Assembly (NCBI GenBank): GCA_028275365.1
Contig: JAPWUU010000010.1
Location: 1 to 39,698 of the forward strand
Length of the DNA: 39,698 bases
Reading direction: 5' to 3'
Source: Candidatus Caldatribacterium sp.
GTDB taxonomy: Bacteria > Atribacterota > Atribacteria > Atribacterales > Caldatribacteriaceae
Of this stretch, positions 2,932 through 39,698 are shown one piece after another. Positions within the stretch are counted from its first letter, which is position 1. Each line of letters opens with the position of its first letter. Made by a program: the position numbers and the translations under genes. A model generated the notes under the pieces. The model was given only the letters and a program-made list of their open reading frames with translations. It was not told where the DNA came from and did no database searches.

Positions 2932-3676
2932 GCTGCTTTCCCTCCCACTCCTCAAGACGCATCCGGAGACGAAGGAGGGTCCGGGTAAGAATCTGGGACA
3001 CCCTCCCTTCGCTCACCGAAAGCACCTCACCGATTTCCCTCAAGGTCAGACCCTCAAAGTAGTAGAGGCTCAGGATGAGCCGTTCCCGCTCAGGCAGCTC
3101 GTCGATGAGCCGCCCGAGGTACTCGAGGAGCTCCCGGTCCTCAAGCACCTCCGAAGGGTCGGGCACTTCCCTCACGCCCTCGCCCTCGATCTCTTCTTCC
3201 TCCCCGAAGAACAGCGCCGGTTTCCCCTGCTCCACAAGCCAGGTGATTTCCCGAAGAGAAAGCCCTGTGACTTCCGAGAGGTCCTCAAGGGTGGGTTCTC
3301 CTCCTTTCTCCTTCTCCCACTGGCGCCAGGCTTCAAGCACCCGGCGCAGGTTCTGGCGCTCACCCCGGGTAAGAGGGTCGAGACTCCGGAGGTAATCGAG
3401 AATAGCTCCCCGGATGCGGGAGAGGGCATAGGTCTCAAAACGCACGCCTCTTCGGGGTTCAAATCGGTCAAGGGCCTGCAAAAGCCCAAGGATACCGTAC
3501 CCTTCGAGGTCTTCCCGGTCGATGTACGGTGGGAGGAGGTAGAGGATGCGTCCCACGACGATTCGCACGAGAAAAAGGTAGTGTTCGAGGAGTTTTTCCC
3601 GGGAAGCCCTATCGCGCCGGGTGAGGAAATCGTGCCAGAGTTTCTCTATATCCTCAGACTTCTCGACGATGTTCAT
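2903..3676 (-). CDS. fliA: Flagellar sigma factor sigma-28 (FliA/SigD)
   Basis: A sigma-70 family factor of 257 residues without region 1.1. Region 2 spans about 20-100 (Y-L-F-L-V-R-I-V-V-G-R; D-x-E-D-L-E-x-Y-G-I-L-G-L-L-Q-A-L-D-R-F-E-P; F-E-T-Y-A-L-S-R-I-R-G-A-I-L-D-Y-L-R-S-L-D). Region 3 lies at about 105-170, and region 4 at about 185-245 (L-P-E-R-E-R-L-I-L-S-L-Y-Y-F-E-G-L-T-L-R-E-I-G-E-V-L-x-V-S-E-G-R-V-S-Q-I). The G-A-I-L-D-Y-L-R and E-x-R-V-S-Q-I forms are typical of FliA/WhiG. It directs polymerase to late flagellar and chemotaxis genes; a matching promoter precedes the mcp gene at 30848. The ATG overlaps the TGA of the upstream gene (TGATG). No flgM anti-sigma gene is visible in the window. 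Confidence 0.95.
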   Translation of the reverse strand: MNIVEKSEDIEKLWHDFLTRRDRASREKLLEHYLFLVRIVVGRILYLLPPYIDREDLEGYGILGLLQALDRFEPRRGVRFETYALSRIRGAILDYLRSLDPLTRGERQNLRRVLEAWRQWEKEKGGEPTLEDLSEVTGLSLREITWLVEQGKPALFFGEEEEIEGEGVREVPDPSEVLEDRELLEYLGRLIDELPERERLILSLYYFEGLTLREIGEVLSVSEGRVSQILTRTLLRLRMRLEEWEGKQRGEGREKAP

Positions 3677-3909
3677 CACGAGCTCTCACCTGTCTTGTCC
3701 TGGGGGATGCCCTGCCGCATGATCCAGAAAAAGTAGGCAAAAAGGAGGGCATACACCACCCCGAAAAGTATGGGAAGCCGCACACTTAAAGCCCAGAGGC
3801 TCATGCCCCGGAGTATTCCCAAAAGCACATACGCCAGGACGAACGCCCAGGCCCCAAGAAGGGCAAAAAGCTGCGCCAGACCCCTCCGGTACTGTTTCTC
3901 ATCCCTCAT
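3676..3909 (-). CDS. Small two-helix membrane protein in the cheD-fliA interval
   Basis: A 77-residue protein with two predicted transmembrane helices (about 13-33 and 41-63) and a charged N-terminus (MRDEKQYRRG) and C-terminus. It starts at an ATG that overlaps the cheD stop (ATGA) and ends on the fliA start (TGATG), so it is translationally coupled to both. I do not recognise the family. Its length and two-helix form recall small uncharacterised membrane proteins found near sigD in other flagellar operons. No function is assigned. Confidence 0.65.
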   Translation of the reverse strand: MRDEKQYRRGLAQLFALLGAWAFVLAYVLLGILRGMSLWALSVRLPILFGVVYALLFAYFFWIMRQGIPQDKTGESS

Positions 3910-7497: not shown

Positions 7498-9542
7498 TCT
7501 TCTTCCTTCACAATCCCCTCCACCCGGACCTCCACATCCCGGGGAATCTCCTCAAAGGCCAGGACCACGAGTTGCGGCAAGGAACCGGAAAAGAGATTCC
7601 GGATGCTCCTCCTCATTTTACCAGGAACAAGGAGGATTGGGAAATGCCCAAGGCCCGCCATCTGCTCCATCTTCCTCGAAAGGCCCCCCAGAACTCTCCG
7701 GAAGCGCTCCGGGGAGAGCACCTCCTCTCCGGCAAAGACCCGACCGAGAAAGGCCTCAAGGTTGGCATCGAGGGTGAGCACGTGGAGTTTCCCGTCATCT
7801 CCCAGGTATTGCCGGACGATGCTCCGGGAGAGTCTCCGTCGTGCTGCCTCGATGAGCTCGTCGATGCTCTTTGCCTGTCTTACGGAATCGGCTAAAGCTT
7901 CAAGGATGAGCACAAGGTCACGAATGGGGACCTGCTCTGCTAAAAGCCCCTGAAGGACCTTCTGCAGGTCTCCCAGGGACAACGCATGGGGGATGAGCTC
8001 ATCCACCACCGCCTGGTTCACCCGTTTCACCTGTTCAACGAGAAGCTGCACATCCTGCCGGGTGAGGAGTTCAGCCGCATGGGATTTCAAGACCTCCGCA
8101 AGATGGGTGATGAGGACTGATTCCGCATCAACCAGGGTGAACCCTGCGATTTCCGCCGTTTCTTTCTGCGCCTCGCTCACCCAGTACGCTGGGAGGTTAA
8201 AGGCCGGCTCCCGGGTGGGAATGCCCTCGATGGGGACCACCTCCCCCTGGGGGTGGAGCGCCAGGTAATGGCGGGGCAAAATCTCACCCTGGGCAACCTC
8301 GACCCCCCGGACTTTGATCACATACTGGTTGGGACGGAGGCGAAGGTTATCCCGTACCCGGATGGGAGGAACCACAAACCCCTTGTCTTTGGCCATGTTG
8401 ATGCGCATCTGGGTGATTCGTTCAAGAAGGGTTCCTCCACTCTGCGGGTCCACAAGAGGAACCAGGGCGTATCCAATTTCGAGTTCGACCGGGTCCACCT
8501 CGATGAGACGGACAATCTCCTCAGGGCTTTTGGGGAGTTCCTCCTTTTTTGGCGGCTGGGGCGGCTCTTTCTTGGGTTTTTCCCGACCCTGCACCAGGAA
8601 GAACGCCCCCGCGAGGCTGGCAAGAAGCAGAAAAGGCACTTTTGGAAGACCTGGGACTGCCCCAAGGAAAAGGAGCAAAAGCGCGGTCAAAAGCACTACC
8701 CGGGGGGTCTGGGTGAGCTCCCTCGTGACATCCTGCCCAAGGTTTTCTTCACTTGCCGCCCGGGTGACGATGAGGCCGCTGGCAGTGGAAATGAGGAGGG
8801 CAGGAATCTGCGCCACAAGGCCATCACCAACCGTCAAAAGGGCATAGGTCTGGAGGGCGTCCTGCAAATTCAAACCCCGCTGGATTACTCCGACCACAAT
8901 CCCCCCAAGGAAGTTGATCATAGTGATGATAAGGCCGGCAATCGCATCGCCCCGAACGAACTTACTTGCCCCGTCCATGGCCCCGTAGAAATCGGCCTGC
9001 CGCTCGATTTCCCGGCGCCGGCGACGGGCCTCCGCCTCATCGATGAGTCCTGCATTTAAGTCCGCATCGATACTCATCTGTTTCCCTGGCATGGCGTCAA
9101 GGGTGAAGCGAGCCGCAACTTCGGCAATGCGGTTGGCGCCATTTGTGATGACCACAAACTGGATGATGACCAGGATGAAGAAGACGATGAACCCGACGAC
9201 GTAGTTCCCCCCCACCACGAACTGCCCGAAGGCGGCGATGAGCCTCCCCGCATAGCCCTGGAGGAGGATAAGCCGGGTTGTGGAGACATTGAGAGCCAGG
9301 CGAAAGAGCGTGGCAAAAAGGAGCAGCGAGGGGAAGACCGAGAACTGGAGGGGATTTGTGATGTAGGTGGTGACAAGGAGGGTCATGACCGAGAGGGCGA
9401 GGTTGCAGCTCAAGAGGAAATCAACGAAGAACGGAGGAAGGGGAATCACCATCATGAGGATGATGAGGATGAAAAGGAAAGCGAAGAGGAAGTCGCTGGA
9501 TTTCGTGCTCCGCTCAACAATCCTTCCAAGGGCTTCCCTCAT
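7494..9542 (-). CDS. flhA: Flagellar export gate protein FlhA
   Basis: FlhA is the large subunit of the type III export gate; its cytoplasmic nonamer docks chaperone-cargo complexes. At 682 residues it has normal length. About eight membrane helices lie in residues 18-310. The FHIPEP family region is clear (N-P-L-Q-F-S-V-F-P-S-x-L-L-x-x-T-L-x-R-L-A-L-N-V-S-T-T-R), followed by the conserved cytoplasmic loop (M-P-G-K-Q-M-S-I-D-A-D-L-N-A-G-L-I). The long C-terminal domain (about 335-682) is complete. The ATG overlaps the flhB stop (ATGA). Confidence 0.97.
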   Translation of the reverse strand: MREALGRIVERSTKSSDFLFAFLFILIILMMVIPLPPFFVDFLLSCNLALSVMTLLVTTYITNPLQFSVFPSLLLFATLFRLALNVSTTRLILLQGYAGRLIAAFGQFVVGGNYVVGFIVFFILVIIQFVVITNGANRIAEVAARFTLDAMPGKQMSIDADLNAGLIDEAEARRRRREIERQADFYGAMDGASKFVRGDAIAGLIITMINFLGGIVVGVIQRGLNLQDALQTYALLTVGDGLVAQIPALLISTASGLIVTRAASEENLGQDVTRELTQTPRVVLLTALLLLFLGAVPGLPKVPFLLLASLAGAFFLVQGREKPKKEPPQPPKKEELPKSPEEIVRLIEVDPVELEIGYALVPLVDPQSGGTLLERITQMRINMAKDKGFVVPPIRVRDNLRLRPNQYVIKVRGVEVAQGEILPRHYLALHPQGEVVPIEGIPTREPAFNLPAYWVSEAQKETAEIAGFTLVDAESVLITHLAEVLKSHAAELLTRQDVQLLVEQVKRVNQAVVDELIPHALSLGDLQKVLQGLLAEQVPIRDLVLILEALADSVRQAKSIDELIEAARRRLSRSIVRQYLGDDGKLHVLTLDANLEAFLGRVFAGEEVLSPERFRRVLGGLSRKMEQMAGLGHFPILLVPGKMRRSIRNLFSGSLPQLVVLAFEEIPRDVEVRVEGIVKEEE

Positions 9543-10606
9543 AGTTTCCTTCCCCTTTCCGCCTGAAGGCGGTACACAAAGGCGAGAATCTCCGCCACCG
9601 CCCGGTAGAGGAAGTGAGGAATCTCCTGACCGATCTCACAGAAACGGTAGAGGTCCCAGGCTACCTCCCTGTTCTCCACGATGGGAACACCGTGCTCCCG
9701 AGCAATGGCTTTGATTCTCTCGGCAAGGAGCCGCTTCCCTTTGGCCACGAGGACCGGAGCCCGCATCTTTCCCCGCTCATACCGCAACGCACAGGCCACG
9801 TGTACCGGGTTCGTGACCACCACCTGAGCCTTTGGTACTTCCTGCATCATCCGCCGGCGCGCAAGCTCCCGCTGGCGGGCCCGAAGGCGGGACTTCACAA
9901 GGGGGTCTCCTTCGGTTCGCCGGTACTCTTCCTTGAGTTCTTCCCTGGTCATCCGGATGTTCCGCTCGTACTCAAAGCGCTGGTAAAAAAGGTCAAAGAA
10001 CCCCACAGCGAGGAAGAGCCCACCAAGGTACAGCCCAAGTTTTCTTACGAGTCCCCCGGAAGCCTGAAGAGCCTCCGGAAGCTCCATCCCCAAAAGGTCC
10101 CCAAGAAGCGGCAATGACCCCCGAAGAACAACATAGGCAAGGAGGATTCCCAGAAAAGTTTTCAGGGCTACCTTGAGGAACTCCACAACCGTGCGAAGCG
10201 AAAAGAGCCGTCCCATGCCCTGCAAGGGATTCACCTGGTCAAAGCGGGGCCGAAGCCGCTCGAAAGAGAACACAAAGCCCGTTTGCACAAACCCCAGGAA
10301 AACCCCCACCCCCAGGGCCAGGGCCGCAAAAGGCGCCACGGCCTGCACGAAGTACGACCCCCCAAGGCGGAGCACAGAGCTTGCCCAGGAGAAATCGGGG
10401 GAAGGGGGAAGTCGCTCGGTCCAGAGCGCCACAAAGCACTCCTCGAGTCTCTGGGCACAATACGGCAAAAGAGCCCCCAGAGTAAGGAAAAGCGAGAGGA
10501 AATGGAAACCGCTTGCGAAATCGACGCTTACGGGCACCTGACCCTTCTTCCTCAGCTCTTCCCGGCGCCTCGGTGTTGGGGCTTCGGTTTTCTCCTGAGC
10601 AGGCAT
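9539..10606 (-). CDS. flhB: Flagellar export switch protein FlhB, with variant NPVH cleavage motif
   Basis: FlhB switches export specificity from rod/hook to filament proteins after cleaving itself between Asn and Pro in an N-P-T-H loop. The protein has 355 residues. It has an N-terminal E-K-T-E-x-P-T-P-R-R segment, four membrane helices (about 30-50, 85-110, 143-165, 188-208), and a cytoplasmic domain from about 215. The cleavage loop reads V-V-V-T-N266-P267-V268-H269, so the usual Thr is Val while Asn, Pro and His are kept. The chemistry needs Asn-Pro, so cleavage is still likely. The ATG at 10606 has a strong GGAGG. A 54-base gap with a terminator-like hairpin separates it from fliR. Confidence 0.96.
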   Translation of the reverse strand: MPAQEKTEAPTPRRREELRKKGQVPVSVDFASGFHFLSLFLTLGALLPYCAQRLEECFVALWTERLPPSPDFSWASSVLRLGGSYFVQAVAPFAALALGVGVFLGFVQTGFVFSFERLRPRFDQVNPLQGMGRLFSLRTVVEFLKVALKTFLGILLAYVVLRGSLPLLGDLLGMELPEALQASGGLVRKLGLYLGGLFLAVGFFDLFYQRFEYERNIRMTREELKEEYRRTEGDPLVKSRLRARQRELARRRMMQEVPKAQVVVTNPVHVACALRYERGKMRAPVLVAKGKRLLAERIKAIAREHGVPIVENREVAWDLYRFCEIGQEIPHFLYRAVAEILAFVYRLQAERGRKL

Positions 10607-10643
10607 GGTTGCCCTCCTGAGGCTTTTTCCAACCCTTGTAGAT

Positions 10644-10670
10644 AAAAAAATTTGCCACCTTCAGGGGGCA
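10644..10670 (-). terminator. Terminator/attenuator-like hairpin at the fliR-flhB junction
   Basis: On the minus strand TGCCCCC-TGAA-GGTGGCA can form a seven-base stem with one C/T mismatch and a TGAA loop, followed by AA and a run of seven T. The fliR stop codon lies at the loop. It has the form of a weak intrinsic terminator, and it sits in one of the few real gaps of the operon. It may reduce transcription into flhB and the chemotaxis genes rather than end it. Confidence 0.45.
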
Positions 10671-25309: not shown

Positions 25310-26902
25310 TCACTCCTCACTCAGCCAGTTCCGGATGAGCTTGGCAACATTCGCCGGGCTGGTCTGGACGAGTTTCTGGACTTCTTCCTCCATCTGCCGC
25401 TGGAGCTCAAGACGCATGCGTTCTTCAGGGGTGAGCTCTGGTGGACGAACCGAGGGGAGCTCTGTGACTTCCTCCTCGGGAGCCTCCTCGGCTTCATAGA
25501 ACTCTGTCACCACTTCCTGAGGAGGGGTGGTGGCGGCAACGAGAATCCGCCGGCCCAGGATGTAGAAAAGCAGTGCCAGGAACGCCACAACACCGTATTT
25601 CAAAAGGAGCTCAAGAAGGCCAGCAAATTTCTGCGCCGCCAGGGCCCGTCGCTCCTCCTCCCACATCGCCCGGTTGAAGGGGAGGGCTTCCACAATGAGG
25701 GTATCCCCCCGGGAGAAGTCAATCCCTGCCGCTGCCTGAACGACCGACCTCACCTTCTCCACGGCCTCAGGAGGGAGGGTACTGTCCACGAGCACGGCCA
25801 CTGAGAGCCGTTCGATCCTTCCCGGAGAAGAACTGAAGCGCTCCAGAATCCGGTTCACCTCATAGTTCACCGTCGATTCCCGACGGTTATAGGTGCTCTG
25901 GGTACCTCGTTCCCCCGGCTCTCCGTACACGGGGATATTGGAAGCCACTCCCGCAGCACCCCCAGGAGGTGTGGCAGTACCTTCATACCGTTCCTCGGTC
26001 TCCTTGGTACTCCGGACAATGCCCTCTCCTTCACGGACCGGCTCAAAGACCTCCTTCTCTCCTTCCCGGCGCTCGAAATTCAACTCAGCACTCACCCGAA
26101 CTACGGCCTGTTCTCGACCCAGAACGCTCTCGAGCATCGTCTGGATGCTCCGGGTGAGCACTTCCTCAACCTCGCGCTTCACTTCAAGCTGCGTGGCCGT
26201 GAGGTTAGCAAGGCCAAGAAGCGTCGTCCCTTCCTTCGTGCCAGTTGCCAGGATATTCCCCCGGTCATCAACAATGGCCACGCGCTGGGGATCAAGACCT
26301 TCGACGCTGTTCGCTACAAGATGGGCAATGGCCTCAATCTGTTCTTCCTTGAGGGTTGCCCCAGGACGGAGCTTCAGAACCACCGAAGCCGTGGGCTCTT
26401 TTCTGTCCTCGGCAAAGAGCCGCTCCTCTGGGAGGACGATGTGTACCCGGGCCGCCTCGACCTCGGCAAGTTGCATGATGGTCCGCTCGAGTTCCCCCTG
26501 CAGGGCCCGCTGGTAGTTCACCCGCTGGAGGAAGCTCGTGAGCCCAAAGGTGTTTTTATCGAAAACCTCAAACCCCGTTCCCCGGGTAGGAAAACCTTTC
26601 TGGGCGAGCTTCATTCTGGCTTCATGGAGCCGGTCCTGGGGAACTTCCACCACCGTTCCGCCGCTTGAGAGACGATGGGGAATCCCGAGTTCTGCAAGAG
26701 TATCAACCACCCGGCCGGTCTCCTGCGGATCAACGCTCCTCAAAAGCGGTGCGTAATCCGGTTTTCCCGAATAGAGGAAAAGCGTGATGAGGCCAGCGAA
26801 AAGGGCGGTGCTCACAAGGAGGAAGAGCACCCGCTGGGACTGGGTCATGCCTCCCCAGACATTCTTCACCTGTTCGGTGAAATCCGCAAGGGGACTCCGC
26901 AT
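25310..26902 (-). CDS. fliF: Flagellar MS-ring protein FliF
   Basis: 530 residues, normal length. Two membrane helices (about 24-44 and 428-448) flank a periplasmic part with YscJ-like ring-building domains (P-L-L-R-S-V-D-P-Q-E...L-A-E-L-G-I-P-H-R-L; G-F-P-T-R-G-T-G-F-E) and the family stretch with Y-N-R-R-E-S-T-V-N-Y-E-V-N-R. The C-terminal tail (V-Q-T-S-P-A-N-V-A-K-L-I-R-N-W-L) is the FliG-binding peptide. FliF forms the base on which the export gate and switch assemble. Start is ATG 26902, three bases after the fliE stop, with only a weak ribosome site (GGTG), so it is probably coupled. Confidence 0.96.
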   Translation of the reverse strand: MRSPLADFTEQVKNVWGGMTQSQRVLFLLVSTALFAGLITLFLYSGKPDYAPLLRSVDPQETGRVVDTLAELGIPHRLSSGGTVVEVPQDRLHEARMKLAQKGFPTRGTGFEVFDKNTFGLTSFLQRVNYQRALQGELERTIMQLAEVEAARVHIVLPEERLFAEDRKEPTASVVLKLRPGATLKEEQIEAIAHLVANSVEGLDPQRVAIVDDRGNILATGTKEGTTLLGLANLTATQLEVKREVEEVLTRSIQTMLESVLGREQAVVRVSAELNFERREGEKEVFEPVREGEGIVRSTKETEERYEGTATPPGGAAGVASNIPVYGEPGERGTQSTYNRRESTVNYEVNRILERFSSSPGRIERLSVAVLVDSTLPPEAVEKVRSVVQAAAGIDFSRGDTLIVEALPFNRAMWEEERRALAAQKFAGLLELLLKYGVVAFLALLFYILGRRILVAATTPPQEVVTEFYEAEEAPEEEVTELPSVRPPELTPEERMRLELQRQMEEEVQKLVQTSPANVAKLIRNWLSEE

Positions 26903-27603: not shown

Positions 27604-28011
27604 TTACCGCACCTCCCGGATAACCGTTCGCAGAAGACCGAGTTTGTCGGACACCATGCGGGCAAGCGCCTGATAGTACAGGGCATTCTCCACCACGGTC
27701 ACCATCTCTTTCTCCACATCCACTCCGGAACGATCCTGGCGAACGACGTACGCTTCCTCAAGGACCCTCGTTTCTTGCGAATTTTCCACCTGGTCCTGGA
27801 AATGGGCCCTGTGGGTTACAGAAAGCGGCAGGGTTTCTCCTCTCTGGAGCACATCCTGGAAAACGCTCTGGAAGTCCACGTCTTTCCTTCTGTAGTGAGG
27901 CGTCTCAACGTTGGCGACGTTCTGTGCCAGAATCCTCTGGCGAACCATGGAATACTCAAGACCTCGTTCCAGAACCTGCATCACCGGGTCTTTCACCATG
28001 TCCCAGGACAT
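27604..28011 (-). CDS. flgB: Flagellar proximal rod protein FlgB, first gene of the giant operon
   Basis: 135 residues. Rod signature L-E-Y-S-M-V-R-Q-R-I-L-A-Q-N-V-A-N-V-E-T-P-H-Y-R-R-K-D-V-D-F, and a C-terminal helix with E-K-E-M-V-T-V-V-E-N-A-L-Y-Y-Q-A-L. The ATG at 28011 has a strong GGAGGTGAG. The open frame extends upstream through the intergenic region, but that part is not conserved. It heads about 36 co-directional genes and is divergent from purK. I could not find a convincing sigma-70, sigma-28 or sigma-54 promoter in the roughly 106 bases upstream. Confidence 0.96.
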   Translation of the reverse strand: MSWDMVKDPVMQVLERGLEYSMVRQRILAQNVANVETPHYRRKDVDFQSVFQDVLQRGETLPLSVTHRAHFQDQVENSQETRVLEEAYVVRQDRSGVDVEKEMVTVVENALYYQALARMVSDKLGLLRTVIREVR

Positions 28012-28074
28012 CCGCTCACCTCCACCATGAGAAGATGAAATATTTTGCCAAAACTCCCAAAAGCTCTCCCCCAT

Positions 28075-30306: not shown

Positions 30307-30830
30307 CATACCTTCTCCTTTTCCTCGCCTTCCTGCGGGTGGGTTTCTTCTCTTTCGGCGGGGGACTTGCCGCCCTACCCCTCATCGAGCGGGAAATCGT
30401 CGACACGTACCGCTGGCTCTCAAAACCCGAGTTCCTCGAGCTCCTTGCCCTCTCCCAGCTCACCCCAGGACCCATCGCCATCAATGCCGCCACGTTCACC
30501 GGGTTCAAAGTTGGGGGGATGCTCGGGGCTTTCGTCGCCACCGGAGCCTTCTGCCTCCCATCGGTACTCCTCACCCTCCTTGTGGTGACCTTCCTCTCCC
30601 GCTTTCGGGAAAACCCGTACGTTGCAGGGTTCCTTCGGGGTCTGCGCCCGGCACTCCTTGCCCTCCTTCTCCGGGTAGCGCTCTCGGTCATCCAGGATGG
30701 CATCCACGACTGGTTCGGGTTGCTCTTGAGCATCACCGGAGGAGCACTGCTCTTTTTTGGGAAAATCGAGGAGATCCCGTTGCTCCTTCTTGGGGGCATT
30801 CTTGGACTCCTGTGGTACGGGTGGCGGTAA
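30303..30830 (+). CDS. chrA: ChrA-type transporter, half-size subunit 2
   Basis: 175 residues, with the same fold as the preceding gene: [24 protein letters not shown], then [19 protein letters not shown], the more typical ChrA Q-x-x-P-G-P-x-x-x-N form. About five membrane helices. The ATG at 30303 overlaps the previous stop (ATGA). The two halves probably pair in inverted topology. No terminator is apparent after the stop; a new promoter for the mcp gene begins 18 bases later. Confidence 0.9.
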
Positions 30831-30847
30831 AAATCCTCCCTCCCCCC

Positions 30848-30874
30848 TAAAGTTCCCGAAAGAGGTGTCGATAC
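30848..30874 (+). promoter_or_regulatory. Sigma-28 (FliA) promoter of the mcp gene
   Basis: TAAA (30848-30851), a 15-base spacer, and GTCGATAC (30867-30874). The flagellar sigma consensus is TAAA-N15-GCCGATAA, so the -35 is perfect, the spacer exact and six of eight -10 bases match. It lies 62 bases before the mcp start. FliA itself is encoded at 2903-3676. Confidence 0.7.
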
Positions 30875-30936
30875 CCCTCAGAGAAAGCAGGACCAAGGCA
30901 TGCACCACACAAAAATTCCTGAAAAGGGGTGGTCTT

Positions 30937-33117
30937 ATGTTCAGAAGTCTCAAGGCGAAACTCCTCTTTTTCTTCCTCCTCCTCTCCATCGTTCCCCTCG
31001 TGGCCGTGACCTACTACGGCATAGAAGTGTTCCGGGGGAAGCTCGAAGAGAACGCCGAAAGAGAGTCCATGGCGCTCCTTGAAACCACCGCGCTTGCCAT
31101 TGATCAGTGGCTCAACGAGAAGGTTGAGCGCCTCCGGGCCCTGAGCGAGTGGGAGGACGTGAAAGCGCTCTCTCCGGAACGGACGCTCCCCGTCCTGAAA
31201 ACCCTTGCCGCCGCCGACCCGCAGGCAGAAATGTACTTCTTCGCCCACGAGGACGGAACAGCCTGGACGACGCTCGATAGCCAGGCGAATATTGGTGACC
31301 GGGAGTACTTCAAGAAAGCCAGGGAGACTGGGAAACCCCAGGTCTCGGACATGGTGGTCTCAAGAGCCACGGGGAACAGAATCATTGTCATCGCCCACCC
31401 CATCACCACCGGCGGGCAATTCCGGGGTATCATCGCCATGACGGTTGACGCAAAGACCCTGTCCCGTCTTGTGGCCTCGGTGAAGCTCGGGAAGACCGGC
31501 TACGGGTTCCTGGTGGATTCAAAGGGGTACATCATCGCCCACCCTGACGAGAGCGTCATCATGAAGATGAACGTCACGGAAACGAGCTCAGAGAGTGCGA
31601 ACGCCCTCGGCAGGCGCATGCTCCAGAGGGAAAAGGGGTACGGAACGGCCTCCTTGCGCGCCAAAGAACTCAAGAATATCGGCAAAGACCAGAGGTTCTT
31701 CGTGGCGTTCACTCCTCTTGCTGCTGCCCCCTGGACCCTGGCGGGCAATGCCCCGGAAGAGGAGCTCTTCGGCGAGGCCTTCGCGCTCCGGAATGTCATC
31801 CTCCTCATCATCGTCGCCGTGGCCGTTGTCGTCGCCGTAGTGTCGCTTGGTGTTTCCGGTGCGATCTCCTCAGGTATCGCCAGGGTCAAGGACGTCATCA
31901 ACCAGGTAGCCCAGGGTGAGCTCAGGGTGGACACCAAGGCCCTCGAAGACGTTGCCTCCGGAAGCGACGAAGTGGCTGTTCTAGCCCGGTCCTTCCTGGG
32001 GATGCTTGGGAACCTCAAAGAACTCGTGACTGAGATCCTCAGCACCTCCTCTTCCCTGGCCTCCTCGAGCGAAGAAATCGCTTCCTCCATCGATGAAATC
32101 TCGAAAGCCACCCAGGAAATCACCAAGACCATCTCCCAGGTCGCAGAAGGCTCCACCCGCCAGAGCGAGGAGCTCCAGAGAATCGGTGAAGAGGCCGCAG
32201 GTATCGGGGAACAGGCGGAGAAAATCGCCCAGGCCACCCGGAGGAACCTGGAACTCCTTGCCCTCATGCAGGGGAATCTCGCCAAGAACCGGGAGGCCCT
32301 CGAGGCGATCCAGCAGGCCACGGAAAGCACGCAGAAGGAAAGCGTAACCACCCGAGGTGAAGCCCAGAAAGGGAAGCAGGCTCTGCAGCGGCTCATTGAG
32401 AACGTCTCCTCCATAGCCCGGGTGAGCGAGAGGGTGGCCGAGAGCATCCACGTCCTTGAAGAGCGCTCCCAGGAAATCGGCAAAATCGTGGACCTCATCA
32501 CTGGCATTGCGGAGCAGACCAACCTCCTTGCCCTCAATGCGGCGATTGAGGCGGCAAGAGCCGGAGAAGCCGGACGGGGCTTTGCCGTGGTGGCTGAAGA
32601 AGTGCGCAAACTCGCCGAGGAATCCGCAAAAGCGGCAGAACAGATTGGTGCCCTCATCGCAGAGATCCAGAGAGATACCCGGCAGGCCGTTGAGAACATG
32701 GAACGGGCACGGAGCGAAGTCGAGGCAGGGAACAAGGAGAGCGAAAATGTGGCTGCGAACTTCAACGAAATCCTCCTGGCTATTGAGCGGCTCGAGGGGG
32801 ACATCGAGAACCTTTCCCGTTCCCTGAAGGAAGCCTTCCTGCTCCAGGAAAAGACCCTGCAGAGCGCCGAAGAGGTCGTCGCTTTCTCTAAAGACAGTGC
32901 CACGCTCATCAGCAAGACCACGCAGGGGGTACAGAACATCACTGAGAACATCTCCTCCGTTGCCGCTGTAGCCGAGGAAAATGCCGCCTCAAGCGAAGAA
33001 GTCTCGGCCTCTACCGAAGAGCAAAATGCCTCTCTTGAAGAGGTCAACTCGGCTGTACAAGCCCTGGCGCAGATGGCCCAGAACCTGCAGAAGCTCGTGG
33101 GGCGGTTCAAGGTATGA
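30937..33117 (+). CDS. Methyl-accepting chemotaxis protein with dCache-type sensor
   Basis: 726 residues. Membrane helix 1 (about 8-28) and helix 2 (about 285-308) bracket an extracellular double-Cache-like sensor (about 35-280), with the typical D-R-E-Y-F-K-K-A...G-K-P-Q-V-S...I-I-V-I-A-H-P-I pattern and a second [16 protein letters not shown] unit. A HAMP domain follows (about 305-365). A long cytoplasmic coiled coil has its hairpin tip at about 515-565 ([21 protein letters not shown][16 protein letters not shown]). No C-terminal CheR-binding pentapeptide is present. CheR, CheB and CheD of this locus should act on it. Start ATG 30937, behind AAGGGG. Ligand unknown; small organic molecules are usual for this sensor fold. 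Confidence 0.95.
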
Positions 33118-33185: not shown

Positions 33186-34178
33186 ATGCACGGCGAGGGG
33201 TTTGAGGGGAGAGTCATCGATATTTCCACGCTGCGGATCATTCGCTTTTTCAGGCGCCTGGGGCTATATGTCTTCTTGGCCGTTGTCATCCTCTACTTCC
33301 TAAGCGGTGTGTACGTTGTGGGGCCCGATGAGGTGGGAGTAGTTCGGCGCCTGGGGAGCTACCACCGTACCGTTCCCCCGGGAATCCACTACCGGCTCCC
33401 GTATCCCTTTGAAAGCGTGGTCCGCCCCAAAATCACCGAGGTCCGGCGGGTGGAGATTGGCTTCCGAACCCTTTCTCCCGGTCCCCCACCAAAGTACGCC
33501 CTGGTTCCTGAGGAATCCCTCATGCTCACCGGGGACGAGAATATCGTGAGCTGCCAGTTCATCGTGCAGTTCCGCATCAGCGACCCCTACCAGTATCTTT
33601 TCCGCATCAAAGACCCTGAGAAAGCGGTGAAGAACGCTGCCGAGGCCGCCCTCCGGGAAGTTGTGGGGAAAAAGACGATTGACGAGGTGCTCACCACCGG
33701 GAGAGCCGAGGTTCAGGAAGAGACGCGAACCCTCCTCCAGGACATCCTCAACCGGTACGAGGCGGGAATCCGGGTGATCGCCGTTCAGCTCCAGGACGTC
33801 CAGCCCCCGCAGGAAGTCGTGGCGGCGTTCAAGGATGTGGCCAGCGCCCGGGAAGATAAAGTCCGCTTTGTCAACGAGGCCGAGGCCTACCGGAACCAGA
33901 TTCTGCCCCAGGCTCGGGGAGAGGCTGCCCGCATCCTCAAAGAAGCCGAGGCTTACAAGGAGACCACGATCAGAAAGGCCGAGGGAGAGGTTGCCCGGTT
34001 CCTCTCTGTACTCCGAGAGTACGAGCTCAACCCGGAAATCACCCGGGAGCGGCTCCGCCTGGAAACCCTCGAGCGTACCCTCCCGAAGGTCAGGAAGTTC
34101 ATCTTCGACGAAGAGGCCGTTTCCCAGGGAACGCTGAAGTTCCTTCCGCTTTCTGAGGGGGAGAAAAGCGATGAATAG
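33186..34178 (+). CDS. hflK: FtsH-protease modulator HflK (SPFH/stomatin family)
   Basis: 330 residues. One membrane helix (about 27-45) is followed by the SPFH domain (about 45-230: Y-V-V-G-P-D-E-V-G-V-V-R-R-L-G-S-Y, P-P-G-I-H-Y-R-L-P-Y-P-F, L-M-L-T-G-D-E-N-I-V, V-Q-F-R-I-S-D-P) and a helical segment rich in Ala/Glu (A-R-E-D-K...A-E-A-Y-R-N). HflK and HflC form a cage on the periplasmic side of the membrane around FtsH and limit its access to membrane substrates. The ATG at 33186 is the only good start and has no ribosome site. It overlaps hflC by eight bases. Confidence 0.93.
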   Translation: MHGEGFEGRVIDISTLRIIRFFRRLGLYVFLAVVILYFLSGVYVVGPDEVGVVRRLGSYHRTVPPGIHYRLPYPFESVVRPKITEVRRVEIGFRTLSPGPPPKYALVPEESLMLTGDENIVSCQFIVQFRISDPYQYLFRIKDPEKAVKNAAEAALREVVGKKTIDEVLTTGRAEVQEETRTLLQDILNRYEAGIRVIAVQLQDVQPPQEVVAAFKDVASAREDKVRFVNEAEAYRNQILPQARGEAARILKEAEAYKETTIRKAEGEVARFLSVLREYELNPEITRERLRLETLERTLPKVRKFIFDEEAVSQGTLKFLPLSEGEKSDE

Positions 34179-35067
34179 GAAAATCCTGGCACGGCGCCTC
34201 CTGCTTGTCGTCCTTGTTCTCGTTCTCCTTGCCCTCTTCAGGCCCTGGTACATTCTTGACGAGACGGAGCAGGGCGTCATCGTCCAGCTCGGGAAACCGG
34301 TCCGGGTGGTCCGAGAAAGTGGATTCCACCTCAAACTCCCCTACCCTTTCCAGGTGGTGCAGAAATTCGAGCGCCGGCTTTTGGAATACGACTCCCCTCC
34401 TGAGGAAGTCATCACCCGCGACAAGAAGACCCTCGTGGTCGACAGTTACGTCCGCTGGCGCATCGCTGACCCCCTCGTCTTTCTGCGAACCGTGGTGAGC
34501 GAGAGTGGCGCAGTGGTCCGGATTGACGATGTGGTGTACTCCGAACTCCGTACTGAAATTGGCCGGGTGGACCTTTTTGACCTTGTGTCCCGAGTGCGGG
34601 GAGAAGTCATGAGCCGGATTACTGCCCGTTCCAACGAAAAAACGCGGGAATTCGGCGTGGAGATTGTGGATGTCCGAATTAAGCGGGCGGACCTTCCCAA
34701 GCAGAACGAAGAAGCCATCTTCCAGCGGATGAAATCGGAAAGAGAGCGCCAGGCAAGGCAGTACCGTTCCGAAGGTGAAGAGGAGGCCACCAAAATCCGG
34801 GCTGAGGCCGACAAAGAACGGGCACTCATCCTCGCCGAGGCAGAGAAACAGGCGCAGATTCTGCGGGGTGAGGGTGAAGCCGAGGCCCTGCGAATCTACG
34901 CCGGGGCTTACGCGAAGAACCCCGAATTCTTCGCCTTCCTCAAAACCCTCGAACTCTACGAGAAATCCCTCAAAGAGGGCGATACCCTCATCCTCACTCC
35001 AGCCTCAGACCTTCTGCGGTACCTCAGGAGTGCGCAAGAACCTGAGCCACAAGGGGCAGAAAGGTGA
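34171..35067 (+). CDS. hflC: FtsH-protease modulator HflC (SPFH/stomatin family)
   Basis: 298 residues, with a membrane helix (about 9-23) and an SPFH domain: I-L-D-E-T-E-Q-G-V-I-V-Q-L-G-K-P-V, S-G-F-H-L-K-L-P-Y-P-F, E-V-I-T-R-D-K-K-T-L-V-V-D, Y-V-R-W-R-I-A-D-P. The helical tail has R-Q-A-R-Q-Y-R-S-E-G-E-E-E-A-T-K-I-R-A-E-A-D and Y-A-K-N-P-E-F-F-A-F-L-K-T-L-E, as in HflC. It starts inside hflK with GGGGGAG upstream. Its last 44 bases overlap, tail to tail, the convergent AhpD-like gene, so no intergenic terminator exists. Confidence 0.94.
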   Translation: MNRKILARRLLLVVLVLVLLALFRPWYILDETEQGVIVQLGKPVRVVRESGFHLKLPYPFQVVQKFERRLLEYDSPPEEVITRDKKTLVVDSYVRWRIADPLVFLRTVVSESGAVVRIDDVVYSELRTEIGRVDLFDLVSRVRGEVMSRITARSNEKTREFGVEIVDVRIKRADLPKQNEEAIFQRMKSERERQARQYRSEGEEEATKIRAEADKERALILAEAEKQAQILRGEGEAEALRIYAGAYAKNPEFFAFLKTLELYEKSLKEGDTLILTPASDLLRYLRSAQEPEPQGAER

Positions 35068-35353
35068 AGGCAGGTCCTCCACCCATAACCACCCCTACCT
35101 GGGCGGCCTCAAGGATTTCCTGCGGGGTGGCTCCAGCCCTCTTTGCGCCTTGAGCGTGGAGAACCACACAGTGTTCACAGTGGATGGCAACACCAATGGC
35201 CAGAGCGATGAGTTCCTTCGTTTTCAGGGACAGTGCCCCATCGGCCATGACCTCGTGGTAGAAGGTGAGAAAGGGGGTGACACTTTTGGGAGACTGTTCC
35301 CGGAGTTCCCGAATCCCCTTCCGGTACTCCTCGAGGAATTTCCCGATATCCAC
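35024..35353 (-). CDS. AhpD-like carboxymuconolactone decarboxylase family protein
   Basis: 109 residues. The AhpD redox motif is complete: E47-x11-C59-x2-C62-x3-H66 (in K-T-K-E-L-I-A-L-A-I-G-V...H-C-E-H-C-V-V-L-H), followed by A-x-x-A-G-A-T-P-Q-E-I-L-E-A-A and G-G-G-P-A. Proteins with this motif are thiol-disulfide peroxidase-type enzymes; those without it are decarboxylases, so a redox role is favoured. The start is probably the GTG at 35353, six bases after the rpoN stop with AAGGGAG upstream; codons further up are part of rpoN. It is the last gene of the cheA-cheY-kinase-rpoN operon. Its end overlaps hflC by 44 bases. Confidence 0.85.
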   Translation of the reverse strand: MDIGKFLEEYRKGIRELREQSPKSVTPFLTFYHEVMADGALSLKTKELIALAIGVAIHCEHCVVLHAQGAKRAGATPQEILEAAQVGVVMGGGPAFTFLPLVAQVLAHS

Positions 35354-35358
35354 AGGCT

Positions 35359-36699
35359 CTACACTCCCTTCTCTTGAACCTTGAGGATACGCCGCCTCAG
35401 GTGGGACGGCGGAATCCCCATCTCCTCCCGGTAGAGCGTGCAGGTTCTCCGGGCAACACAAATGCCCTGGGCTCTGAGCTTTTCGGCAATTTCCCGATCA
35501 GAAAATGGGTGGCGAGGGTCTTCTTGCAAAAGAATCGTCCGCATGGCCTCCTTCACCGGATAGGAGGCGTCGAAGAAGAACTTTACGCTTCGCACCACCC
35601 CGTCGGGGAAGCGGAGGAATTTCCCCTTGAGCACCTGACAGACACCGCTTACGCTTATTCCAAGGGCTCCGGCAATTTCTCCTTGGGTGAGGGGGACGAA
35701 AAAGGAGGGACCACGGTGGAAGAACTCCCGTTCCTGTTCCACGATGTACTCGAGCACCCGAAGGAGTGTCCGGTACCGGTACGAGAGGCACGACAGCACC
35801 TCCCGGGCCTCCCGAAGCTTCTCCCGGAAGAAGTGGCGTTCCCGCTCTGAGAGTTCCCGATGTTTCTTCCGCCAGAAAGCAAGGACTGCTTCGTTCAGGG
35901 TCACCTGCATGGAGAAGGAGGGAACAAGGACAACGGCAAACTCTCCCTCTGCAACCTCCACAATCTCGGCATCGGGGCACACGGAAGACCTCGCCTCCTC
36001 GAGGTCTTCCCGTTCCCGGCCAAGGGTGCTCTCGAAGGCCTGGGCGGGGGAGAAGAAGAGACGGTCCCTATAGGGGCGGATGAGGGCGGCAAAGCGGTCG
36101 GGGTCTTCCCGGAACATCCGGCGTAGCGCCTGTGGACTTTCCCCAACCCCAAGCTCGGCAAGTTGCATCAGGAGGAACTCCACAGCATCCTGAGCTGCAA
36201 AACCCGGGAATCCTGCACGACGAACTTTCTCCACGACTTTCTCAACCTTCTCAGGCGGTACGCGAAGCTCAAAGGCTAAGGTCTCCATGCTCTCCCGCAG
36301 AAACCCCTCGGCATCAAGATGGGCGAAAAGCATTCGGACGATGCGCTTTTCGTCCTCACTAAGCCCGGCAAGGCTCAGGATCTCTTCAAAGAAGAACTCC
36401 TTCCATCCCCGTTCCCTACCCAACAACGCAACGTCCTCCACCGGGACCTCTTCGCCCCTTCCGAGGTAACGCCCGCAGCGGGGGCACCGATCCGGATACC
36501 CTGGAATTTCAGCACCACAGCCAAAGCACATGGTGCCTTCCCGAATTTCAAGAAGGGGATTCTCTTCAAGCACCCGCTCAAGATGGGCCTCGAGCTCCGG
36601 AAGTGGGAGGGCCATGAGCGCACTCGCCACCACCATTTTGGGAACCATCTGGCGCCTCTGCAGGGGCTCTAAGACAGGGCGGAGCTTTCTCGTATTCAT
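35359..36699 (-). CDS. rpoN: RNA polymerase sigma-54 factor with an inserted zinc-ribbon-like module
   Basis: 446 residues. Region I is recognisable at the N-terminus (residues about 5-52, ending A-L-P-L-P-E-L-E-A-H-L-E-R-V-L-E-E-N-P-L-L-E), but it is poor in Gln compared with the usual form. Where region II (acidic) is expected there is a C58-x2-C61-x10-C72-x2-C75 module (C-F-G-C...C-P-R-C-G-R-Y-L-G), typical of a zinc ribbon. The core-binding domain spans about 100-300. The helix-turn-helix lies at about 336-365 (L-T-Q-G-E-I-A-G-A-L-G-I-S-V-S-G-V). The RpoN box is A-R-R-T-C-T-L-Y-R-E (416-425), against the usual A-R-R-T-V-A-K-Y-R. ATG overlaps the kinase stop (ATGA). No enhancer-binding activator gene is in the window. 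Confidence 0.88.
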   Translation of the reverse strand: MNTRKLRPVLEPLQRRQMVPKMVVASALMALPLPELEAHLERVLEENPLLEIREGTMCFGCGAEIPGYPDRCPRCGRYLGRGEEVPVEDVALLGRERGWKEFFFEEILSLAGLSEDEKRIVRMLFAHLDAEGFLRESMETLAFELRVPPEKVEKVVEKVRRAGFPGFAAQDAVEFLLMQLAELGVGESPQALRRMFREDPDRFAALIRPYRDRLFFSPAQAFESTLGREREDLEEARSSVCPDAEIVEVAEGEFAVVLVPSFSMQVTLNEAVLAFWRKKHRELSERERHFFREKLREAREVLSCLSYRYRTLLRVLEYIVEQEREFFHRGPSFFVPLTQGEIAGALGISVSGVCQVLKGKFLRFPDGVVRSVKFFFDASYPVKEAMRTILLQEDPRHPFSDREIAEKLRAQGICVARRTCTLYREEMGIPPSHLRRRILKVQEKGV

Positions 36700-38138
36700 G
36701 CTCCAGACCCCCGTTCCACAGGGAGAAAGACCTGGACTCTGGTGCCCACACCCTCCTTCGAGGTCACCTCAATCCACCCCCCATGGGCCCGGACAATACC
36801 GTAGGAAATCGAAAGGCCCAGACCCGTTCCCCGTTCTTTTGTAGTGAAGAAGGGTTCAAAAATCCTGGGGAGAAAGGCTTCGGGGATGCCCTTCCCCGTG
36901 TCGGCAAAAACGACCTTCACGTAGCTTGAGAACCTTTTCTTCTCCTCCCAGGGAGGAACGTTCTCAAGGAGTACACTCTCGGTGGAGATCCGGAGGACCC
37001 CACCCCGTTCCCGCATGGCCTCAAAGGCGTTTTTTGCCAGGTTCATGAAGACCTGGCGCATCCTCGTCCGGTCAACCGGAACAAGAGGGAGGTTCTCTTC
37101 AAGGGCAAACTCCACCCGCTCATTCTCCGTGCAGAAGAAATCCACCAGCGCAAGGCTTTCGCGTACAAGCGTATTGATGTCCGTGGGCTCTCGCTGGAGC
37201 ACAAGAGGCTTGGAAAAGTCCACAAGATACCGGATAACCTCGCTACAGTGCGCCGCTTCTCGCTCGATTTTCTCCAGGACCCTCCGGGTCATCTGGCAGG
37301 TAGAACAGTCGCTATGCCCCTCGATTTGGGCAAGGAGCATCTGGGTGTACCCGTAGATGACCCCCAGGGGGTTGTTGATCTCGTGGGCCATACTGGAAAT
37401 GAATCGGCCGATGCTTGAGAGTCGCTCCATCTGGCGAATGCTCTCCCCCCAGCGGGCGCGCTCCGTCACATCCTCCACAAGCCCCACCACCCGCATGGTC
37501 TCCCCTTCCCACCAGGAGAAAAACCTGAGGTTCAGGAGGCGATCGCCGTTGAGGGCGGAATTCCGCTGTAGGCGAAAGTTCCGCACCAGGTACTCCTCGC
37601 CAAAGCGCAGACTCTGCCACATATCATCGAGCGTTTCCTGCGGGAAGATTTCATCCCACCTCCGACCCAGGACTTCCTTCTCCCTTTTCCCCGTCAGCGT
37701 TTCCATGGTGCTATTCCAGAAAAGAATCCGCCCCTCTCCAAAAGAAAGGAACACCACCCCCAGGGGGAAGCGGAAAAAGAAAAGATGCAGAAGTCTTTCT
37801 TCAACTCTCTGAGCTGAAAGGAGCATCCGCCGTTCAGTGGGGCTCAGGGTGTACGCAGGGGGAGGTTCTCCGTCCCGGAGCGGGCCTCCGCTCACCCACA
37901 CCGAGTGCTCCCCAAGGGTCTCCGTCCGGAAAAAACACAGCTCCTCTCCCTGCACGAAGAAGTGGAGTCCGCTCTGCAGGAAGGTGGGGTCTTTTAAGGC
38001 CTCCTCCACTGGCTTCCGGTACCTGTGGAGGCCGTTGTAGAGGAGCGCGCCGTTTCTTGTCCGAAAGGCCACGTACGCGGCCTGTAAGCGACGCCGAATC
38101 CCTTTAAGCAAAAGACCCCAGGGGAGAACCCGCTCCAT
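36696..38138 (-). CDS. Soluble NtrB-like PAS sensor histidine kinase with CSTC pair
   Basis: 480 residues, no membrane helix. The N-terminal domain (about 1-115) I do not recognise. A PAS domain (about 118-225) is followed by HisKA with phospho-acceptor His252 in S-M-A-H-E-I-N-N-P-L-G. C278-S-T-C281 and C298 lie in the dimerisation region. The ATPase domain has N370 (N-L-A-K-N-A-F-E-A-M), D413-x-G-K-G and G-T-G-L-G-L (437-442). Kinases of this NtrB/FlgS type usually signal to sigma-54 activators, which agrees with rpoN being the next gene (ATGA overlap). The cognate activator is not here; CheY is upstream. Start ATG 38138 is four bases after cheY. Confidence 0.92.
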   Translation of the reverse strand: MERVLPWGLLLKGIRRRLQAAYVAFRTRNGALLYNGLHRYRKPVEEALKDPTFLQSGLHFFVQGEELCFFRTETLGEHSVWVSGGPLRDGEPPPAYTLSPTERRMLLSAQRVEERLLHLFFFRFPLGVVFLSFGEGRILFWNSTMETLTGKREKEVLGRRWDEIFPQETLDDMWQSLRFGEEYLVRNFRLQRNSALNGDRLLNLRFFSWWEGETMRVVGLVEDVTERARWGESIRQMERLSSIGRFISSMAHEINNPLGVIYGYTQMLLAQIEGHSDCSTCQMTRRVLEKIEREAAHCSEVIRYLVDFSKPLVLQREPTDINTLVRESLALVDFFCTENERVEFALEENLPLVPVDRTRMRQVFMNLAKNAFEAMRERGGVLRISTESVLLENVPPWEEKKRFSSYVKVVFADTGKGIPEAFLPRIFEPFFTTKERGTGLGLSISYGIVRAHGGWIEVTSKEGVGTRVQVFLPVERGSGA

Positions 38139-38142
38139 CGTT

Positions 38143-38508
38143 TCAGTTGCCCAGGACCTTCTTCACCGCCTCGATGACCCGTTCAGGTTTAAAGGGTTTG
38201 ACAATGAAATCCCGGGCCCCAGCCTGAATGGCATCGACCACCATAGCTTGCTGACCCATGGCACTGCACATGATGATGCGAGCATTGGGGTCACGTTTTT
38301 TAATCTCCTTCACTGCGGTGATGCCGTCCATCTCCGGCATGGTGATGTCCATGGTGACAAGATCTGGCTTCACTTCTTCATACTTGAGCACCGCTTCCTT
38401 GCCGTTGCTCGCTTCCGCCACCACTTCGTACCCGTTCTTTGTGAGGATATCCTTAAGCATCATCCGCATAAACGCAGCGTCATCCACGATCATGATTCGC
38501 CCAGGCAT
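38143..38508 (-). CDS. cheY: Chemotaxis response regulator CheY
   Basis: 121 residues, a single receiver domain. The acidic pair D9/D10 (M-I-V-D-D-A-A-F-M-R), phospho-acceptor Asp54 (V-T-M-D-I-T-M-P-E-M-D-G), the Ser/Ala switch (C-S-A-M-G-Q) and Lys104 (V-K-P-F-K-P) are all present; it is very close in form to Thermotoga and Bacillus CheY. Phosphorylated by CheA, encoded directly upstream, it binds FliM; CheC and FliY dephosphorylate it. ATG 38508 follows the cheA stop by five bases with AAAGG upstream. Confidence 0.96.
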   Translation of the reverse strand: MPGRIMIVDDAAFMRMMLKDILTKNGYEVVAEASNGKEAVLKYEEVKPDLVTMDITMPEMDGITAVKEIKKRDPNARIIMCSAMGQQAMVVDAIQAGARDFIVKPFKPERVIEAVKKVLGN

Positions 38509-38513
38509 GTCCT

Positions 38514-39698
38514 TTACCCTCCCACCTGAACCATTTTCCAGAGGAGGCTAGCCACGTCCACAATGAGCGATACCCGCCCATCGCCAAGGATCGTCGCTCC
38601 TCCAAGCCCCCGCACATCCCCGATGTACGACCCCAGGGACTTGATGACGATTTCCTGCTCACCGACAATTTCATCGACCACAAGTCCTGCGAGAACCCGG
38701 GCCGCGTTCACCACCACAGTGTAGAGAACTTCAGGGACCTCCATGCCCTCTTCATACTCTGCCTTCTTCCCCTCAAGGAGGTCCTGGAGTCGCAAAAGCG
38801 GCAACGTTCTCCCCCGAAAGAGCGAGGTCAGGGTTTTATTCACCCAGTAGGTATTGTTCTTCTCGATTTTCTCAATCTCCACCACATCGGCAAGGGGTAT
38901 GGAGTAGATTGTCCCATTCACCCGCACAAGGAGCGCCCTGATGATGGCCAGGGTAAGCGGAAGGCGCAGGAAGAACGTCGTCCCCTTCCCTCTTTCGCTC
39001 TCCACGTGGACCTGACCGTTCACCCGCTCGATGTTCCGGCGGACGATGTCCATGCCCACGCCACGCCCGGAAACATCCGTGACCTTATCGTTGGTGGAAA
39101 ACCCCGAGTAGAAGATGAATTCCATGGCTTCCCGGTCGCTCATCCGGGCAAGTTCCTCCTGAGAGGCAAGGCCGAGGGCCAGGGCCTTTTGTCGGATTCT
39201 CTCCACATCAATGCCCCGCCCATCATCCTGGACGAGGATCACCACCGAGTTCTCCTCCTGGTACGCTTTGAGGAGAATGCGACCCCGTGGGGGCTTCCCC
39301 AGAGCCACCCGCTCTGCCGGTGGCTCAATGCCATGGTCCACAGCGTTCCTGAGAAGGTGAATGAGGGGGTCCGTGATTTCTTCGATGAGGGAGCGGTCGA
39401 GTTCTGTGTCCTCACCCTCGATGATGAAATCAATCTCTTTCCCGAAATTCCGGGCAAGATCCCGCACCATCCGGGGAAAACGATTGAAGACCTCAGCAAG
39501 GGGGAGCATTCGGGCCTTCATGATTTCCATCTGGAGTTCGTTCGTCACCCGGCCAATGTGGGTAGTGGTGTCCACAAGGAGGTTCCGCAGGTGCGCCACC
39601 TCCTTGCTCTCCCGGAGGCGCTGGATGATGTCCTCAAGGCGTGCCCGGTCGATGACGAGTTCCCCTACAAGGTTCATGAGGGCGTCAAGCCGTTCCAC
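38514..39698 (-). CDS. cheA: Chemotaxis histidine kinase CheA, C-terminal two-thirds (cut by window edge)
   Basis: The last 394 codons are present. In order: the dimerisation helices (V-E-R-L-D-A-L-M-N-L-V-G-E-L-V-I-D-R), the ATPase domain (H-L-L-R-N-A-V-D-H-G-I-E-P-P; Q-D-D-G-R-G-I-D; F-S-T-N-D-K-V-T-D-V-S-G-R-G-V-G-M-D; G-K-G-T-T-F-F-L-R-L-P-L-T-L-A-I), and the CheW-like regulatory domain (about 265-390). The Hpt and P2 domains lie outside the window. CheA phosphorylates CheY and CheB in response to receptors. It leads at least the cheY-kinase-rpoN-AhpD genes; most of these operons place cheA in the flagellar cluster after cheB. Confidence 0.97.
   Translation of the reverse strand: MERLDALMNLVGELVIDRARLEDIIQRLRESKEVAHLRNLLVDTTTHIGRVTNELQMEIMKARMLPLAEVFNRFPRMVRDLARNFGKEIDFIIEGEDTELDRSLIEEITDPLIHLLRNAVDHGIEPPAERVALGKPPRGRILLKAYQEENSVVILVQDDGRGIDVERIRQKALALGLASQEELARMSDREAMEFIFYSGFSTNDKVTDVSGRGVGMDIVRRNIERVNGQVHVESERGKGTTFFLRLPLTLAIIRALLVRVNGTIYSIPLADVVEIEKIEKNNTYWVNKTLTSLFRGRTLPLLRLQDLLEGKKAEYEEGMEVPEVLYTVVVNAARVLAGLVVDEIVGEQEIVIKSLGSYIGDVRGLGGATILGDGRVSLIVDVASLLWKMVQVGG

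Follow-up and report, generated by a model that had tools for sequence, protein, structure and literature searches.

A divergent sigma-54 factor of class Atribacteria with a zinc-ribbon-like module in place of region II, an altered -12-reading helix and a probable change in promoter specificity

The stretch of DNA analysed, hereafter the window, was a contig of 39,698 nt (JAPWUU010000010.1) from an assembly of Candidatus Caldatribacterium sp. (GCA_028275365.1), whose nearest named relatives were Ca. Caldatribacterium californiense and Ca. C. saccharofermentans of the phylum Atribacterota. It carried a sigma-54 gene at the end of a chemotaxis gene block, together with flagellar genes and a second sigma factor gene, as follows:

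35359..36699, minus strand: rpoN, encoding a divergent sigma-54 factor of 446 aa, the sole copy in the genome (PF00309, PF04963 and PF04552 all above cut-off)
36544..36660, minus strand: region I, the activator-interacting domain, aa 14-52 (PF00309)
36475..36528, minus strand: zinc-ribbon-like module C58-x2-C61-x10-C72-x2-C75 replacing region II (invariant in 13 orthologues; DZR-like; AF2 fragment model)
35632..35655, minus strand: remodelled -12-reading helix SVSGVCQV, aa 349-356, in which Q355, C354 and S349 correspond to E. coli R383, S382 and H377
35425..35454, minus strand: RpoN box ARRTCTLYRE, aa 416-425, with the -24-reading RR kept (orthologue alignment)
36696..38138, minus strand: gene for a PAS histidine kinase, overlapping the start of rpoN; the kinase probably feeds the activator (Pfam; synteny)
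38143..38508, minus strand: CheY-like response regulator in the same operon as rpoN (PF00072; synteny)
38514..39698, minus strand: cheA, in the same operon as rpoN and running off the window (Pfam, NCBIfam, synteny)
27604..28011, minus strand: flgB, first gene of a flagellar operon continuing with flgC, fliE and fliF, a probable target (translation)
25310..26902, minus strand: fliF, whose distribution in the phylum follows that of this sigma-54 (TIGR00206)
9539..10606, minus strand: flhB, a probable target (PF01312, E 7e-113)
2903-3679: FliA (sigma-28) type sigma factor

The rpoN product possessed the three Pfam domains of sigma-54 in order, AID at aa 14-52, CBD at 108-237 and DBD at 290-437, each above cut-off, and its best relatives in the PDB were solved sigma-54/RpoN chains, which upheld the sequence-only reading of the protein as a sigma-54 with region I, core-binding and DNA-binding parts. 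Over its full length it scored 191.4 bits against TIGR02395, for which the curated equivalog cut-off is 277, and the product was therefore designated as a divergent member. Only one AID-bearing protein, this one, was found in the genome. By its domain content the 446-aa protein is a genuine but divergent RpoN. Relatives were searched for in viral contigs and none was found, and a tblastn search of plasmids returned, among the matches listed, only ordinary rhizobial-type RpoNs. The rpoN of C. saccharofermentans (loci L033/L004, genome G015) was present as two frames split at the C-terminal edge of the ribbon, probably owing to an assembly indel.

The order cheA-cheY-histidine kinase-rpoN was kept in all genera examined and usually led straight into flgB-flgC-fliE-fliF, while in the genus of the window the che-rpoN block lay about 8 kb from flgB and was followed by an AhpD-like gene. 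The latter, a carboxymuconolactone decarboxylase/AhpD-like ORF directly after rpoN (35024-35461, minus strand), was listed with a TTG start overlapping rpoN, but it probably begins farther downstream. Between the flagellar operon and rpoN lay, both on the plus strand, a gene for a dCache-domain MCP (30757-33117) and an hflK-hflC pair (33186-35067). The PAS histidine kinase gene shared an ATGA overlap with the start of rpoN, and its product had a CSTCQ motif inside the HisKA region. The first gene of the che-rpoN operon in many genera encoded a small, conserved lipoprotein (GCGVRWQMKDTYIFVYE...) containing a carboxypeptidase-regulatory-like domain (for example L101:1823-2167, minus strand).

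Within the phylum, FliF was found only in genomes of this clade, matching the distribution of this RpoN with the exception of genome G020, and the genera of the order devoid of rpoN were also devoid of FliF and of a strong NtrC-type activator. A published survey places flagellar genes in two families of class Atribacteria (PMC11227167). In G020 (loci L154 and L155), FliF and variant promoters (see below) were present and rpoN was not found; since the contig of L155 ends early, this suggests an assembly gap. Flagellated genomes generally encoded one strong activator, with an intact GAFTGA or GSFTGA motif in ten relatives; no activator gene was detected in the assembly that includes the window, which is 90% complete. 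A truncated Fis helix in the activator was considered and discarded, the HTH_8 match being nearly full length.

Directly after region I and before the core-binding domain, cysteines were verified at positions 58, 61, 72 and 75 in the spacing C-x2-C-x10-C-x2-C. Orthologues were drawn from 50 genomes of the phylum, giving 13 full-length sequences for alignment plus the split one. All four cysteines and their spacing were invariant in 13/13 full-length orthologues of the order, which belong to 4 families and 7 genera and diverge to about 43% identity, and G76-R77 came after the ribbon in these as well as in the split one. In the other class of the phylum (families f6 and f7), none of 15 orthologues had the cysteine motif, an ordinary region II being found instead. 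This contrast argues that the CxxC-x10-CxxC arrangement is not due to chance, and it answers the proposal, made when the motif was noticed, that the cysteines be checked for conservation in a clade. Isolated ribbon segments had their best Pfam matches to DZR and other zinc-ribbon models, reaching up to 27.1 bits against a DZR cut-off of 27.3. An AF2 fragment model built with four sequences showed a hairpin with a pLDDT of 82-83 over aa 58-77, and Foldseek searches with it returned mainly zinc fingers and ribbons (L40e, NZF, RanBP2), all at E > 0.2; the full-length AF2 model was poor (pLDDT 57) and was not used. The CxxC spacing and the DZR-best scores sustain the identification of a zinc-ribbon-type module in the place of region II, and the module and its conservation are established at sequence level. 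From the DZR-like scores, the hairpin, and the zinc fingers recovered by Foldseek, albeit at nonsignificant E values, zinc binding appears likely. The module shares its C-x2-C-x10-C-x2-C spacing with NZF/RanBP2-type and DZR ribbons but differs in being embedded in a bacterial sigma factor and in falling below the DZR gathering score. No model of a sigma-54 region II containing this ribbon was found in the library. No description of the arrangement was found in the literature either, a search of openly licensed papers only, so that the absence of an earlier description is no proof of novelty.

The possibility that the ribbon is exclusive to this clade was rejected. A profile search with the N-terminal 90 residues detected ribbon-bearing RpoNs in other phyla (loci L196-L201, L203 and L205), and within one of these phyla the form recurred in families f83, f256 and f257, while none of 40 further sigma-54s sampled from other lineages had it. 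These proteins, together with L252-L257 and L261, carry CxxC pairs in the same place after region I, and those of f83, f256 and f257 have the region I sequence MVPK(M/L) in common with the Atribacteria protein; they differ in a CxxC-x8/9-CxxC spacing versus x10 here, an ExST[VI]SR-type helix retaining the residue equivalent to E. coli R383, and an ARRT[AV]AKYRE-type box. Four genomes of the other phylum with a ribbon RpoN (G267, G420, G423 and G424) also had a further N-terminal match of lower strength, which may represent another ribbon sigma-54. In a tree from which region II was excluded, every ribbon protein lay outside a clade (support 96/98) holding 56 of 57 ordinary sigma-54s. A single origin of the ribbon, weakly supported at 28/73, is compatible with this tree, and the ribbon is probably an old, minority form of region II.

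A second departure was observed in the DNA-binding part. The position of E. coli R383 was occupied by Q in 13/13 clade orthologues and by R in all 65 other sigma-54s compared, the sister class of the same phylum included, and that of S382 by C in 13/13. The clade helix thus reads S-x-[SA]-[AG]-[VI]-C-Q, versus HESTxSR in the ordinary helix-turn-helix. By alignment, the R383Q replacement is an established feature of the clade. As R383 is one residue and not a family-defining domain, membership in sigma-54 stands, with an altered specificity. ARRT, the -24 reader of the RpoN box, was kept throughout the clade, apart from conservative A/S and T/S exchanges. It had been proposed that the RpoN box was changed, with a fifth cysteine near the DNA contact: C420 is real, but it occurred in only 9/13 orthologues and is not conserved, and the -24-reading part is intact. 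The box is thus not supported as the altered DNA contact; the altered reader is the -12 helix, which had been overlooked. In structures of the E. coli-type complex, H377, S379 and R383 recognise GC at -14/-13 and the RpoN-box residues R455 and R456 recognise TGGC (PMC9770992); earlier crosslinks had involved E378 and R383 (PMC5505868). Compared with canonical sigma-54 (E. coli, Klebsiella, Aquifex; PF00309-PF04963-PF04552), the protein shares the ARRT -24 reader, the equivalent of R336 (R308) and a GAFTGA-type activator, encoded in relatives of the window's genome, whereas it has a zinc-ribbon-like module for region II, Q, S and C at the equivalents of R383, H377 and S382, and promoters lacking the -12 GC.

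What the ribbon does was considered in the light of these comparisons. Short DZR/NZF-like ribbons are usually structural. The sequence-only reading had suggested a metal- or redox-sensitive module acting on region I, by which the sigma factor itself would sense zinc, oxygen or thiols. Four invariant cysteines do adjoin region I, C304 and C354 are invariant too, and C420 adds a partly conserved one. No sign of sensing was found, however: the signal appears to enter through a histidine kinase of ordinary type and a GAFTGA activator, which would already supply it, modules of this kind are retained in other phyla, and a strictly anaerobic way of life has been inferred for the lineage (PMC11227167). 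A switch of this kind is accordingly regarded as very improbable. Alternatively, the ribbon might shield RpoN from proteolysis or aid its folding, as does the separate zinc-ribbon protein FlgZ (HP0958) in Helicobacter, whose CxxC motifs are needed to keep RpoN from turnover (PMC3372290). Both are zinc ribbons tied to RpoN in a flagellar system, and isolated ribbon segments matched PF02591, the family of FlgZ, weakly (segments 2 and 4 only; E 0.0034; 17.9 bits, below the cut-off of 29.1). This similarity lies at the generic zinc-ribbon level, the module is here inside the sigma-54, and PF02591 proteins exist independently throughout the phylum in genomes with or without a ribbon-RpoN or any RpoN; a trade-off between the two was consequently rejected. 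Such a stabilising role seems unlikely. Both roles appear less well supported than that of a structural brace. In sigma-54 structures, region II lies between region I and the core-binding domain and enters RNA polymerase bounded by the beta protrusion, the beta flap and the ELH-HTH, its first half being disordered (PMC10786286). By analogy, a rigid ribbon at this site would neighbour both region I and the -12 helix, which makes a structural brace the most economical view.

In the flagellar clusters, canonical -24/-12 sites were found upstream of genes at no more than chance frequency, and none was present in the window even when one mismatch was allowed. This null scan led to a search for another motif, and the consensus TTTGGCA-N5-WTTYATCY was obtained, in which the -24 TGGC is at canonical spacing and the -12 GC is replaced by YA followed by TC. 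Relative to GG-N10-GC, the targets thus carry GG-N10-YA, outside the canonical -24/-12 definition. Two variant sites were observed in the window:

28034..28050, minus strand: predicted variant sigma-54 promoter TGGCAAAATATTTCATC, 39 bp upstream of flgB (at flgB in 14 genomes)
10641..10657, minus strand: predicted variant sigma-54 promoter TGGCAAATTTTTTTATC, 51 bp upstream of flhB (at flhB in 14 genomes)

Every genome first compared had TTTTGGCA-N5-WTTYATC or a near copy upstream of flgB. Besides flgB and flhB, the motif preceded an FlgE/F/G-type rod gene (9 genomes), the conserved lipoprotein gene at the head of the che-rpoN operon (9 genomes), a type IV pilin-like gene (6 genomes), MCP genes and a PilT-like ATPase gene; the sites preceding recognisable genes were mostly 35-70 bp before start codons, and Pfam confirmation of the target genes covers examples. 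The prepilin-like gene had the variant promoter in six genomes (L124, L111, L103, L117, L136 and L169), and type IV pili thus seem, from site position, to share the flagellar sigma-54 regulon.

Controls were based on spacing, since a reversed pattern creates CpG and is not a fair comparison. In 375 kb of flagellar clusters, TGGCA-N5-WTTYATC had 20 matches, against 0-1 at any other spacing. Across 16 flagellated genomes, 97 matches were counted at N5 versus 14 at N6; genomes of the other class also exceeded at N5 (about 78 versus 37 at N6), so that the genome-wide count alone is not clean. The sites were gathered by pattern, which makes the information at fixed positions circular, and only the flanking TTT, the A/T-rich spacer, the preference of T over C and the trailing pyrimidine are independent; a bias to TTT before, A/T in the spacer and a pyrimidine after was indeed observed outside the search pattern. 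In genomes of genus g5, in which rpoN is missing (G001-G005), a repeat containing TGGCAATCTCATTTATC, with about 10 copies in G003, inflates raw motif counts.

The motif and its target genes are established as sequence features, and their use as sigma-54 promoters is inferred. Because H377, S379 and R383 read GC at -14/-13 and R455/R456 read TGGC, the changes in protein and DNA lie at matching positions. That TGGCA-N5-WTTYATC belongs to another regulator or sigma factor might be argued from the fact that its pairing with RpoN comes from sequence comparison and that a FliA-type factor is also encoded. Such an assignment is improbable, as TGGC stands at the exact canonical -24 spacing near gene starts and at the rpoN operon itself, the base pairs that changed are exactly those recognised by the substituted residues, and the short spacing is incompatible with a -35/-10 promoter. 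Drift was also weighed, in which a sigma-54 serving one regulon relaxed its -12 recognition and the promoters followed, no new specificity being gained. The single rpoN in the window's genome, the one strong activator per genome in relatives and the divergent family score would fit it, but conservation of the new -12 TTYATC extended over 4 families and at least 7 types of target, and this points to positive recognition rather than loss; we consider drift quite unlikely.

The two departures were separable. Genomes of f83, whose ribbon RpoN retains R383, contained 19-20 canonical TGGCA-N6-TTGCW sites, compared with 3 in the control, and variant sites were absent; the picture was less clear in the other ribbon families. 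Since ribbon RpoNs keeping R383 sit in genomes with canonical sites, most clearly in f83, ribbon and promoter change are, on these comparisons, separate traits, the variant promoter going with R383Q, and the idea of the ribbon and the altered -12 recognition as one adaptation was rejected. The sister-class RpoN (f6 and f7; L017-L031), a member of the same gene family present there along with several activators, differs in having an ordinary region II devoid of the cysteine motif, R383, canonical TTGC sites and no FliF.

Taken together, these data are best explained by a single activator-dependent flagellar and pilus sigma-54 of class Atribacteria whose -12 specificity has changed and whose module is most likely a structural zinc ribbon, a reading to which we assign a probability of roughly 0.78. 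The neighbouring PAS kinase would phosphorylate the one NtrC-type GAFTGA activator, which would then remodel region I and so open the flgB, flhB, rod, che-rpoN, MCP and pilin promoters; the link between kinase and activator is inferred. Region I, the core-binding domain, the ELH and the -24-reading ARRT box would function as retained parts, while the helix altered by R383 to Q, H377 to S and S382 to C would read TTTGGCA-N5-WTTYATCY promoters. The CxxC-x10-CxxC module would be a structural zinc ribbon taking the place of the first half of region II, which is usually disordered; where the chain enters RNA polymerase next to the beta flap and the HTH, the ribbon probably braces region I and the -12 helix. 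A bolder proposal is that of a naturally orthogonal sigma-54, with TTYATC as a new -12 code read by a Q355 helix and with the ribbon directly involved, either by contacting the DNA or HTH at an extended -12 element or by setting the activator dependence of region I; this is put forward tentatively, as possible but doubtful.

To our knowledge, sigma-54 biology takes the GG-N10-GC promoter and R383 to be invariant, and promoter finders rely on both. Finders based on GG-N10-GC would miss this regulon entirely. Region II is generally described as variable and dispensable, yet in one minority lineage of RpoNs, found in several phyla, it takes the form of a conserved zinc-ribbon-like module. With protein and DNA altered at matching positions, this natural lineage would allow a direct test of -12 recognition and may offer an orthogonal activator-dependent promoter system. 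Thus, in one class, the Atribacteria of the hot subsurface, evolution seems to have rewritten a promoter-reading rule that was regarded as universal.
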